This document shows positions 14,472 to 62,160 of a DNA stretch of 64,000 bases, piece after piece. The stretch comes from Bryum argenteum (Eukaryota > Streptophyta > Bryopsida > Bryales > Bryaceae): the NCBI GenBank assembly GCA_037043015.1, contig CM073322.1:16007601-16071600 (forward strand). The letters run 5' to 3'. The position numbers and the translations under genes were made by a program. Numbering within the stretch: position 1 is the stretch's first letter; each line of letters begins with the position of its first letter. The notes beneath the pieces are model-generated. The model saw only the letters and a list, made by a program, of their open reading frames with translations, did not search any database and had not been told where the DNA came from.

Positions 14472-14490
14472 TGATATAGAACCCGATTTA

Positions 14491-14600
14491 TAAATTAGTG
14501 TGTTCTTTTGTGGCTTATTCCCTGACAATGTAAACTTAGCATGGAACTTAGCTAAGTTTACATTGTCAGGGAATAAGCCACAAAAGAACACACTAATTTA
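14491..14600. repeat. Near-perfect 50-bp hairpin
   Basis: The arms around 14491-14540 and 14551-14600 are complementary over about 48-50 bases with a one-base bulge, separated by a 10-base loop (ATGGAACTTA). The arms contain GTGTGTTCTTTTGTGGCTTA and its complement. It lies inside the 978-bp element just right of the nested TTAA element. It could be a foldback insertion or a small-RNA precursor. Confidence 0.85.
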
Positions 14601-14721
14601 TAACATCATGAATGAACATGGAAGTGACCCGTAATGTTCACCCTGAAAAGTGACCCTTCAAAAAATATGGGTAGCTACAGTGAAATTATGGGGTCGGGTC
14701 TCACATGTGAGTGCGCCCTTA

Positions 14722-57719: not shown

Positions 57720-58700
57720 CAAAAACCAGAACTGTAGGGCCCGTGCATGAAAAGCGTCTTGGAATGTTGTTCACATGGAGACGACGATCGAGGATGGTCT
57801 GATCGGTGATCGATTCATGCTACCGTATATGAGAATGATGTACAACTGAAAGAATGATCCTGGGACTTAGGGGGATAAGAAGTTAGTGAGAATGACGAAT
57901 CAATTGCAAGTTCATGGTGGAAAATTGAGGCGCAGGAAAATCTGGTCTACAAGCGGATTGTGATGAAGAATATGTTATATGAATCTTAAGCATCAATCGC
58001 CTGATCCTGCTTACTCTTGAGGTTGCCTGGTTAACAATTTTATGCAGGATTTGTACTCGATCACGCTCCCGTGAGCTCATTGGAAATTCTTGCGAGCATA
58101 TTCTGTCCTTCAGGATGGTTGCTCACCCAACTTTTTCTTCTACTTCATCATCGAGTACACGACAAAGTAAAGACGTAGATAGATAATTGGCATCAGTTGT
58201 GACTTCTTTATGTCACATTCCGTGATTTCACATGTGCGATATTATCCAATAACTAGGGTTATCATATTATAGGAATATTCTTGTATTTTCAAATTTCAAC
58301 TAGGTACTTCTTCTCAAAACTTATATGTATAGTACCCAGCAGATGAGTTATGTTTATCCCTGTTACAGCAAGTTTTCATGAGTGGGATGACTTTGGAAAG
58401 AGAATTTGACGAGATTTTGTGGGTACATGAAAGCCATAACCGCAGTCCAGTCGATTTGACCTGTCGTGGCAGCTTTTTACTTGAGAAGAGGATCAGCGTT
58501 ATAATGCATAACAGCGCCTTCCCTGGCCTTCCCTGGCGTTATGTGTCTGCGCCAACGAATGCATGCCAGGTGCTACTACCCGAAAAAAATTTCCAGTACA
58601 CCACAATTTTGTGGGGGGGGGGGGGCTTATACTCCCTGCCTAGGCAAGGGGTACCTTTGACCGTGCTATCCATATGGGATACATGGTTCTTCTATGGACA
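57720..58700. other. Intergenic, nothing recognised
   Basis: No gene seen. A long G run (about 58615-58627) follows CACAATTTTG. A faint likeness of this part to the SINE body (G run, then GGGGTACC) was noticed but is too weak to call. Confidence 0.35.
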
Positions 58701-61106
58701 TGGATGAATGAGGATGAATGTCATCCAAAGCTCTAGTAGGAATCCTTGGATTTGACATCCAGTTTTACAGTTTTCCGTCCACCCATCCATGCTTCATCCG
58801 ACACAAAGACACTTCAACATACATAATATTTACAGCTTTATTGCACAATATTTCTTTCCACATTACATTGTCCGACTGTTCTTTGTACATTGTCACACCA
58901 AGCTGCCCTATTTTTCGCCAATGTGCACATTGAAAACACAGTTCGTGAAGCTTCCGCGTAGTATTGATTTCTTGATTAACTCCTCAATTTCCGGCACCAT
59001 CACAGTTTCTTGTCTCGAATGGGATCCTGGAATCCTCTCCTGGCCTCCAACAACCGATCGAGAAGTGGGACGCATTGTTTCTTGTTTTTTCGCCACTCAT
59101 CTTTGAACTTCTTGGACTTGATCGAAGCTTCATTATCCTATTTAGCTTTTCTGGATCAATATTCTCCCAAAATTCATCCTCATCAGAGACCTTCTTCATC
59201 GCGACTTTCGGTCATTGGAATATCCTCAATACTCAACCCGCAAAATAGAAGCCAAATCAAAACACGAGCCAACTCAACAAAGCGCAGCTACATCCTTGAA
59301 CCACTTTCTATGACGCAAAAATATGTTTACCTTTGTAACTCCGACGTAACTTCGTAAACATGTATACTTGGAGCCGACTTGTCAATTGTTGCGCATGCCA
59401 TGCCTCCAACTCTTGTTGGTAATGATACTCGAAAGTAAAAGGCTCCCCATTATCATGTTGTAAGGCTCCGTGTTAAAAAGCTCATACGCTTCCCTTACCT
59501 TTACAATGCAATCTTTGTAATCATACCTGGCGAGAGTTTTCTCATTGCGATGGCACGTGATGCTAGACATTATCTCCTTTGGTACTTGAGCGCGGACATT
59601 CTTGTAATTGCCGTCACTCTCTCTGCTTTTATTCTTTGAAATTACCTTCAATCCCAGTTTCCATCATCTGTTTCACCACCCCCGCATTGTACTCAAACCA
59701 ACCGGTTGTTGCTTGAACCATGTATTCGTTTTTTTATTGTGAATGCATGATAAAAAAGTGGCCCACATGTTTTAGACTCGGGTGGCATGTGCTCAATGAG
59801 CGTCGAAAAGGTCTCCAACACGCCTCGGTTGTAGGAAACAACAACCGCACTTCGAAGTGCTCTTCTTTGAATCGCTTCAACGACACTTTGTAGTTTTTGG
59901 AGAGTCTTTCGTCAGACCACTGTATAAATATAATCATGAACTTATCAATACAACATATCATGCTCAAAGTTTCCACATTTCAGAGGTTCAAACTTACCTT
60001 AGAAAGTCTTTCCCTGCTTCATCTTTTCCAAGTTGAAAGTCAGACACCAAAAGTCCTTGCAATTCAGATCCTCCTCGTATAAGAAACACTGTAACACAAT
60101 AATATGCAAATCTCTTTTGAACTCCCAACGGATGAGTTGCCAAATGTTTAGAATGAGAAAGTACTCTACATTCTTCATCAAATGTGATACAATCAACCTT
60201 CTTCCTCGGTTTGTTGGCACCGAAATCTCTACTCCGTTCCATAGCATCCTGTACAGCCCTAGTAGTGGCTTTGAACCAAGGATGCGTTTTTATGTTAAAC
60301 GGCACCTCCTGAATTCCGGTTATTCACCACTTTCCTTGTTCAGCATAATAAAAAACTTACACAACATTGATCCAAATTCTTGAAGAGGAAGCTTCTCAAT
60401 TGTAATAGAAGTATCCAATCCACAAAAATTTCTCCAAGCATCAAACCGATTTCTCGCCCATGTATCTCGATCTCTTGCTTGGATTTTACTACAGAATTTA
60501 ACATTTTTTCCATTTTTTCCGGATCACAATCAAAAATCCACAAAAGACACTTTCCGTCGCTACTACTCGACTCTCGTGTATCGGGATCTACGAAAAACTA
60601 TCTCAATTCAAAACGGTGTCCGATAACTCCCTATTCGGCACTTCAACAATTGTAGGACTTGAAAAATCGATCCCAATTCCGAAGATATCAAAGCCTTCTA
60701 GTGTTTCTTCATCAAACACCGAGGAGTTTCCACACTAACGAGACTATTCTCCGTCATTAGATCATTTCGAAGTGAAACAGTCGCAGGTTAAGAGTTGAGC
60801 TATCGTCAGTATGTAGGGATTTGGTGCGGCGCTACTACCACTTTCACCACCACGACCTCGCCCTCGACCGCGATCATGCGTGGGACGATCGGCAATCGAC
60901 ATGATCCGCTTGTATGTAGGAACCCTCTTGCGCTTGAACGCTCCATCGCAGACAGAAGCACGCACCTCGCGAGAAAATGACGGCACTCATCACAATGGCG
61001 GCGTAGTTATTTGGGAGGGATGAACAAACGGATGTCCTACGGAAAATGAAATTTCATTCAAGGATTCCTACTAGACGTTTGGATGAAAATCATCCACATC
61101 CATCCA
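58701..61106. mobile_element. TIR-bounded element carrying a tyrosine-recombinase gene
   Basis: The left end TGGATGAATGAGGATGAATG then TCATCCAAAGCTCTAGTAGG and AATCCTT (58701-58747) is matched in inverse orientation at 61060-61106 (TGGATGGATGTGGATGATTT, TCATCCAAACGTCTAGTAGG, AATCCTT). The core of about 25 bases differs only at the two bases GC/CG. A minus-strand gene fills the interior: its ATG is at 60990, about 70 bases inside the right repeat, and its last stop is at 58908, about 160 bases inside the left repeat. A target duplication is not clear. The element is 2.4 kb and has no second copy in the window. Confidence 0.65.
58908..60990 (-). CDS. DUF3504/Crypton-type tyrosine recombinase
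   Basis: Minus-strand blocks from 60990 leftward are: MSAVIFSREVRASVCDGAFK with an Arg/Gly-rich run; DGKCLLWIFDCDPEKMEKML; the core FNIKTHPWFKATTRAVQDAM ... DCITFDEECRVL ... HPLGVQKRFAYYCVTVFLIR-GG-SELQGLLVSDF; then SERLSKNYKVSLKRF; TTGWFEYNAGVVKQMMETG; the recombinase box SSITCHRNEKTLARYDY (H-x2-R then Tyr); and the tail LRGSFTNCVFNVHIGEK before the stop at 58908. This order matches the C-terminal domain shared by KIAA1958, ZMYM2 and QRICH1, which descends from Crypton tyrosine recombinases, including the F-x-N-C-x-F-N tail. Introns lie between blocks (one near 59980). Some shifts are not explained by clear splice sites, so the copy may be lightly damaged. The catalytic first Arg could be R in LIRGG, but this is uncertain. 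Confidence 0.7.
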
Positions 61107-61127
61107 CAGACTTCGGTTATGTCCGGC

Positions 61128-61250
61128 AATGGTCAGCAGCCCGTGGTTATGAGAAATAACCAATGGGGCAGTACCTACCTCGCCGCTCGCGCGGCTCGGT
61201 AGGTACCGCCCCATCGGTTATTTTTCATAACCACAGGCTGCTCGACCATT
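61128..61250. repeat. Foldback, about 52-bp arms
   Basis: AATGGTCAGCAGCCCGTGGT then TATGAGAAATAACCAATGGG and GCAGTACCTACC pairs with GGTAGGTACCGCCCCATCGG then TTATTTTTCATAACCACAGG and CTGCTCGACCATT, with few mismatches. An 18-base GC-rich loop (TCGCCGCTCGCGCGGCTC) joins the arms. It begins only about 20 bases right of the recombinase element. Confidence 0.85.
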
Positions 61251-61440
61251 ACCTAGTCCATTGTTGTGACTCATGAGCTGCCAACTTTTAGAGCATTCCT
61301 ATCAAACATGCACTTCATAGAGTTGGTTTAAGTTTGCCAAAAAATGCCAAAAAACCACAGCTTTCTCTCAAAAATGTACAGACACGTTTAGAGTTTGCTA
61401 GTGTCTACAAATATTGTATTGTAGAGGATTGGAGTTGAGT

Positions 61441-62160
61441 ATTCTTCTCATTCGAGTGTAAAATCAACCACTTCAAGTAAGATGGAAAGGTTTGGTGTCG
61501 AACACGAGAGGCTATGCCGCTTTCGAAATGAACTATCACTCAAACAGTAAACCATGGAGGTGGGGGATTATGGGTTGGCAGTCCATTTGCATGCATGGAC
61601 TTGGATTGATATGCAAAGTAGAGGGGCGCTTGAATGAGATTTGTTATCATGACATTTTAGAGGAAAATGTCTACAAGGTAATTTGCAAGTTGAACTTACA
61701 CCATTCTCGTGTTATCTCCATTAAGAAAATGCTTCTATTCACACAACAAAGATGCCTCAAGAGTGATTCTCACGGCAACCTTTTGTTGTCCTTCCTTGGG
61801 GCTTGCTTAATCGCCTAATTTGAATCCCATTGAACACCTTTGGTCAATCCTCAAATGAAGACCAATCAATATGAGATACACTAGTACCTAGATAAGATTA
61901 ACCTCGTTAAGATCAAGGTTTAGTTAAGGACGTTGTCCTTGTCCCTTTATTATGCAAAGAGGCATTGTTTTATTATGGTCAACGCTTGGACAGAATCAAC
62001 GTTTTTGTCTCTCCAAAAACATTTATCTAATCCAAGCACCACTGTACCTCCAAATGGATTATTAAAATTGAAGGATTGTGTGGTAGAAGTTTTCCACTCA
62101 ATTACACCCGATGATTTGTACATTTTTTGTCCACCTCCCATTTTCATTTGTACATTTTTT
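61441..62160 (+). mobile_element. Tc1/mariner transposase remnant
   Basis: Plus-strand pieces in family order are WGIMGWQSICMHGLGLICKV, EGRLNEICYHDILEENVYKV, LNLHHSRVI, NLNPIEHLWSILK (61820-61857, the third-acidic-residue motif region) and, after about 160 bases of unrelated sequence, PPNGLLKLKDCVVEVFHSIT-PDD. The pieces lie in several frames with stops. The N-terminal helix-turn-helix half and the TIRs were not found. It is a 5'-lacking, inactive copy of the DD34E Tc1 group. Confidence 0.8.

Follow-up and report, generated by a model that had tools for sequence, protein, structure and literature searches.

A Probable Crypton-Like DNA Transposon with a Long Palindrome at One End in a Plant, Apparently a Moss

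The Element and Its Host

The feature at positions 58435-61261 of the window (the whole 64,000-nucleotide stretch of DNA that was analyzed) is a single dead copy of a mobile-element family, apparently of a moss host, that carries a phage-integrase-type recombinase. The host is a plant, as the original prediction had it, with the SAM_LFY domain at five places in the genome. The LFY gene at locus L047 holds the residues MRDYVH, GAWCQACY, and MCHIER, which we take to be the moss type of LFY. The parts of the element are the following:

58435-61261, minus strand (gene strand): whole element, 2,827 bp, a dead copy; the homology common to the copies begins and ends here, and the flanks are unlike
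58435-58437, unstranded: left core trinucleotide CAT, present in 15 of the 15 left ends listed; it sits at the 3-bp position of the empty sites of other copies
58435-58448, plus strand: left member of the short inverted repeat pair, CATAACCGCAGTCC, identical to the right member at 12 of 14 bases
58701-58751, plus strand: left arm of a 51-bp inverted repeat, subterminal by copy comparison
58908-60946 (approximate, by eye), minus strand: decayed gene for a tyrosine recombinase, with three exons as judged against copy L010; 83-bp deletion at 60321/60323
61056-61106, minus strand: right arm of the 51-bp inverted repeat, bordering the short inverted repeat at 61108-61121 on its inner side
61108-61121, minus strand: right member of the short inverted repeat pair, CATAACCGAAGTCT, located on the palindrome's inner side
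61122-61124, minus strand: inner spacer of 3 nt, GGA, which separates the palindrome from the short inverted repeat
61125-61253, unstranded: near-perfect 129-bp palindrome at the gene-upstream end
61254-61258, minus strand: 5-nt outer spacer between palindrome and core, NAYTA in all five families
61259-61261, unstranded: right core trinucleotide CAT; C-N-T in 18 of the 18 right ends that reach the end

The inverted repeats first noticed at this locus, opening at 58701 and closing at 61106, are indeed present and, at 51 bp, are 86% complementary. They had been regarded as the termini of an element fitting tightly around its gene, but among the near-full copies homology passes them by 266 bp on the left and by 155 bp on the right; the 51-bp repeats are subterminal, and the element ends lie further out. 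The minus-strand gene predicted between them survives as a trace at about 58908-60946, but it is broken, with its frame split and 83 bp of exon 1 missing in comparison with L010. The element is adjoined at 61299-61880 by another repeat family, matched in at least about 20 other places, whose end, by eye, resembles the NPIE-W motif of Tc1/mariner transposases.

Copies, Ends, and Insertion Sites

A search of the genome (258.8 Mb in 25 contigs, with the window on contig C2) using 58701-61106 returned 110 matches, comprising roughly twelve near-full copies and numerous partial matches. The nine longest, excluding the window itself, are 89-96% identical to the window copy. Both repeats and the gene are common to multiple genomic copies, which bears out the proposal of a mobile element. 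The copies share their ends, and their flanks are unlike over the 40 bases compared. On the left, the shared part opens with CATAAC or CATAAT in all 15 window-family ends listed, while at the 18 right ends it closes with CAT (13), CTT (3), or CGT (2), all of them C-N-T; this count covers matches reaching the end, and those of L037, L040, and L041, which break off earlier, were set aside. Both flanks are readable in thirteen insertions of the window family, namely the window and twelve others, with the halves taken separately in three cases split by large insertions; L019 is interrupted too.

With four insertions from other families added to these thirteen, 17 could be compared at their flanks. 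An exact duplication of at least 2 bp is absent in 16 of them and amounts to 3 bp in the remaining one; none of the 17 has more than 3 bp, and the C-N-T core repeat remains. Sixteen joined flank pairs were used to search for empty sites, and three insertions have such counterparts at 7 paralogous places, 80-84% identical, each consisting of left flank, 3 bp, and right flank. The two empty sites of L015 both carry CTT between the flanks, the single one of L016 carries CAT, and the four of L078 carry TAC, TAC, CGC, and CAG. Because just 5 of 12 core bases at the L078 sites match CAT, strict targeting of CAT is unlikely for this insertion. CAT stands at both ends of the filled sites, and therefore three target bases have been overlapped or replaced. 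No empty site was found for L024, where the repeated left flank ends near the junction. The original prediction looked to empty sites and a constant target duplication as marks of mobility: the former exist for three insertions, but no target duplication extends past the 3-bp core. Less probably, the core repeat could represent a 3-bp target duplication made by another enzyme at a preferred C-N-T site.

The Recombinase Gene

Judged from its sequence, the gene of the element encodes a tyrosine recombinase, an identity that rests on copies other than the one in the window, since none of six fragments of the window copy matches a recombinase model. The Phage_integrase profile (PF00589) matches six of seven aligned relatives, in agreement with the predicted enzyme class. 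Membership of the KIAA1958/DUF3504 group, claimed at the same time, was rejected for the window family, which matches Phage_integrase and lacks any match to DUF3504 (PF12012). The DUF3504 profile matches one of the seven relatives, presumably L045 (C2:29424692-29428862). This distant recombinase paralogue is the sole DUF3504 place in the profile scan of the genome, below the cut-off, and is possibly a separate lineage or a host gene.

None of the other copies among the ten listed has open frames as long as those of L010. The L010 gene has an ATG near 664 and introns that run from GTAAG or GTAAA to CAG, with limits set by eye. Exon 2 of L010 matches Phage_integrase with an E-value of 5.8e-6 and 26.6 bits, against a cut-off of 27.1, which L019 exceeds with 28.8 bits. 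The catalytic-type motifs of L010 are RGGSELQGL, WFK, NKSGR, GHR, and YDY; by inspection, the first catalytic arginine seems to lie in RGGSELQGL, the motif that closes exon 1. N-K-x-G-R, G-H-R, and the tyrosine are invariant in all seven aligned recombinases. The position of the catalytic histidine is occupied by lysine in the same seven, giving K-x-x-R for the usual H-x-x-R, a pattern known from topoisomerase IB and telomere resolvases and one that counts against the explanation preferred here. In the alignment to an integrase of solved structure, the lysine of K-x-x-R falls on the histidine. That integrase is the one weak match (E 0.088) between the family profile and solved structures, and L010 alone gave three chance-like matches only. 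The structure prediction for exon 2 is poor (pLDDT 52), and a pattern search of viral contigs returned 16 matches, none of them a relative. No other transposition enzyme was recognized by eye in the open reading frames of L010; the Pfam profile scan for such enzymes covered fragments of the window copy and of other window-family copies.

The Hairpin End in Five Families

At its gene-upstream end, the window element reads ATG-GACTA-palindrome-GGA-CATAACCG. The corresponding ends of four other recombinase families, whose exon-2 proteins are 39-51% identical to that of L010, read ATG-TATTA...GGA-CGTAACC (L075), ATG-AATTA...TTT-CATAACC (L077), ATG-GACTA...GGA-CATAAGC (L078/L079), and ATG-AACTA...TTA-CGTGACC (L065/L082). 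All five share one layout, in which the inverted repeats start with C[AG]T and a palindrome of 93-131 bp lies between one repeat and the flank, set off by an outer spacer of 5 nt and an inner one of 3 nt in every family. At the opposite end of the element, an inverted repeat of this kind faces the flank in each family. The palindrome is always located upstream of the gene and has a small apex loop.

The end regions fold with energies of -78 to -138 kcal/mol (RNA parameters); the window copy reaches -117.0, against a mean of -46 over 100 shuffles. Low in the stem, a bulge of one base is predicted in the window family only. A first view that palindromes of different families are wholly unrelated in sequence had to be dropped, as four of ten pairs outscore every one of 200 shuffles. 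These alignments start at the base or the apex and the remaining stem differs; the families have thus retained the pairing although a large part of the stem sequence is altered.

Within the window family, the palindrome was compared in 13 of the 15 copies tried, two lacking the end motif being dropped. For twelve copies against L010 over 64 pairs, 681 of the 768 cells are unchanged, 47 are broken, 23 have become G-U by one change, 4 are paired after a one-sided change, and 12 are gaps. Compensatory change was not found in this comparison, where a single two-sided paired change stands against the 47 broken cells, and the changes are plain decay.

Seven recombinase lineages could be read upstream for at least 2 kb or as far as a hairpin, which is present in five of them. 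The other two, which are more distant, have no palindrome in the 2.3 kb (C6:10.0M) or about 2.3 kb (C2:29.4M) upstream. Neither L071 nor L073 has a palindrome of at least 25 nt in about 1.5 kb of flank, and twelve further recombinase loci, most of which stop short of the element end, have no inverted repeat of at least 25 nt there; among these loci, L034 and L035 hold an unrelated palindrome and L029 one rich in A+T. A strict, bulge-free hairpin finder detected two hairpins in the 64-kb window, that of the element and a near-perfect 116-bp foldback at 14488-14603 that has no link to it. The same finder missed the hairpins of L075 and L077 and picked up unrelated palindromes in L034 and L035. 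In L019, the apex of the palindrome seems, by eye, to be inverted with respect to other copies.

Hairpins are also found away from listed recombinase genes. A genome search with four of them located the L075 type at 12 places (one a half, one without its outer end) and the L079 type at 8, some partial. A recombinase lies within 10 kb of four of the former and one of the latter; for the other eight and seven, no exon-2 match is listed within that distance, and therefore gene-less copies, those with no recombinase listed, keep the hairpin. The L077 type (2 places) and the L082 type (1 place) always adjoin a recombinase. Three apparent solo arms, L087, L089, and L094, adjoin sequence resembling the left end and seem to derive from elements by internal deletion. 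At L083, L085, L086, L088, L090, L091, L095, and L096, the palindrome is represented by its outer arm alone, next to the element end. An inverted half-hairpin at about 5148-5220 of L076, some 150 bp from a truncated element, may be the mark of a hairpin-mediated rearrangement.

Comparison with Known Systems

Cryptons are DNA transposons with a tyrosine recombinase, found in fungi, stramenopiles, and animals, whose boundaries are hard to define; Chlamydomonas is listed in a figure legend (PMC3212892). They have no terminal inverted repeats and carry 4-6 bp direct repeats, and a Mariner-fused Crypton with inverted repeats is described as owing these to its Mariner transposase (PMC3212892). The moss element resembles them in using a tyrosine recombinase as its transposition gene, in the short direct repeats at both ends, in its non-autonomous derivatives, and, putatively, in a circular intermediate such as was proposed for Cryptons (Kojima and Jurka 2011, PMC3212892). 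It differs in its short inverted repeats, its long palindrome at one end, and a core of 3 bp instead of 4-6 bp. The available part of PMC3212892 mentions neither land plants nor palindromes. The same part derives the recombinase domain of the DUF3504 proteins KIAA1958, ZMYM2-4, and QRICH1 from Cryptons; one relative in the genome matches that model, but the window family does not. Like a Crypton, the element encodes a tyrosine recombinase (PF00589 in six of seven relatives) and no other transposition enzyme recognizable by eye in L010, and the direct end repeats come without further target duplication, as C-N-T of 3 bp. Contrary to Cryptons, all five families have C[AG]T inverted repeats, one of which is displaced inward by the palindrome in each.

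An integrated integron cassette carries its site at one end. This site, attC, shares with the moss element a tyrosine recombinase system, the boundary boxes, the unpaired spacer, and a stem of variable sequence. As described in the accessible part of PMC2727003, attC palindromes are 57-142 nt long with poor sequence conservation and conserved boundary boxes, an unpaired central spacer lies between the outer and inner stem, and crossover takes place at one boundary. The moss element is eukaryotic, however, encodes its own recombinase, and has longer and more perfect stems. Boundary boxes that pair around an asymmetric unpaired spacer and a variable inner stem occur in all five families, but the conserved extrahelical bases of the attC inner stem have no consistent counterpart in the predicted folds.

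TEC elements of ciliates share inverted repeats and a recombinase gene inside a DNA element with the moss families, and differ in having long terminal repeats and encoding a DDE transposase as well. The accessible text of PMC4157794 presents them as DNA elements with a tyrosine recombinase. Neither a plant or moss Crypton nor a hairpin-ended recombinase element is among the titles and opening abstract lines listed from the literature searched. Of two plant reviews, as far as their available text goes, one does not name Cryptons (PMC9033089) and one names them only in general (PMC11630846); the corresponding text of Iyer and Aravind (PMC3537659) deals with DIRS1-type retroposons and plant ALOG domains.

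Proposed Mechanism and Alternatives

The element is probably a Crypton-like DNA transposon whose plant host seems to be a moss. A tyrosine recombinase would be all that it encodes, and it would move via a circle whose recombination site carries a hairpin. The recombinase family, the ends, the palindrome, the independent insertions, and the empty sites are read from the sequence; the circle, the crossover point, and the palindrome as part of the recombination site are what we infer. The recombinase would join both ends of the element at the short C-N-T core and release a circle, in which the two short inverted repeats would face one another across the long palindrome. The core of the circle would then recombine with a loosely matching chromosomal core, and this insertion would leave the entire palindrome at the gene-upstream end. 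The Phage_integrase matches, the shared ends with unlike flanks, the empty sites, the layout common to five families, and the hairpins at places with no recombinase gene listed all argue for this transposon. Against it stand the lack of compensatory change in the palindrome, the lysine in place of the catalytic histidine, and the two distant lineages, along with L071 and L073, without a palindrome in the stretch examined.

The hairpin itself may be part of the movement mechanism. By analogy with attC, it is tentatively conceivable that the recombinase acts on a folded site recognized by its structure, that the element moves via a single-stranded hairpin, and that integration leaves this hairpin entire at one end. 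The inverted repeats would then form the outer stem, followed by the unpaired 5/3-nt spacer and a long inner stem whose sequence is largely unconstrained.

The palindrome could instead lie outside the recombination site and serve expression, as promoter, insulator, or terminator, or trigger silencing. Its place immediately upstream of the gene, common to all five families, fits such a role, as does the absence of compensatory change in the window family, but its exact position between core and inverted repeat, with the fixed 5-nt/3-nt geometry in five of five families, and its persistence where no recombinase gene is listed make this unlikely.

A telomere-resolvase-like site, cut and resealed by the recombinase into the hairpin ends of a linear form, is improbable to a much greater degree. 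Long palindromes with small apex loops and the replacement of H-x-x-R by K-x-x-R recall such sites, and a brown-algal virus offers a parallel, having, according to the available part of PMC13236599, a tyrosine recombinase and a separate telomere resolvase with a telRL-like palindrome. The single palindrome, however, is found at one end only and inside the core, the empty sites are of the integration type, and the Pfam scans gave no resolvase similarity.

Very improbable, too, is the capture of a recombinase gene by a conventional TIR transposon that duplicates 3 bp of its target, an option raised in the original prediction and now disfavored. The short inverted repeats and the trinucleotide repeated at both ends would suit it, but the left trinucleotide is CAT in 15 of 15 cases while the right one varies, none of the L078 empty sites holds CAT, no second transposase was recognized by eye in the L010 open reading frames, no duplication goes past the 3-bp core, and five families each combine such ends with a recombinase of their own. 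Descent from a DIRS-type retrotransposon through loss of the reverse transcriptase is the least credible origin, for although DIRS elements also have a tyrosine recombinase and inverted repeats and occur in Viridiplantae (PMC4157794, available part), no reverse transcriptase was seen by eye in the listed open reading frames of L010 or in the 3.4-kb loci of the other families.

Implications

The Crypton-like transposon proposed here is represented in one plant genome by several families with clear ends, some empty sites, and a common hairpin architecture. Clear ends and a shared hairpin make the recombination site definable and directly testable. If the hairpin were recombined as a folded strand, the reaction of bacterial integrons would occur in eukaryotes.
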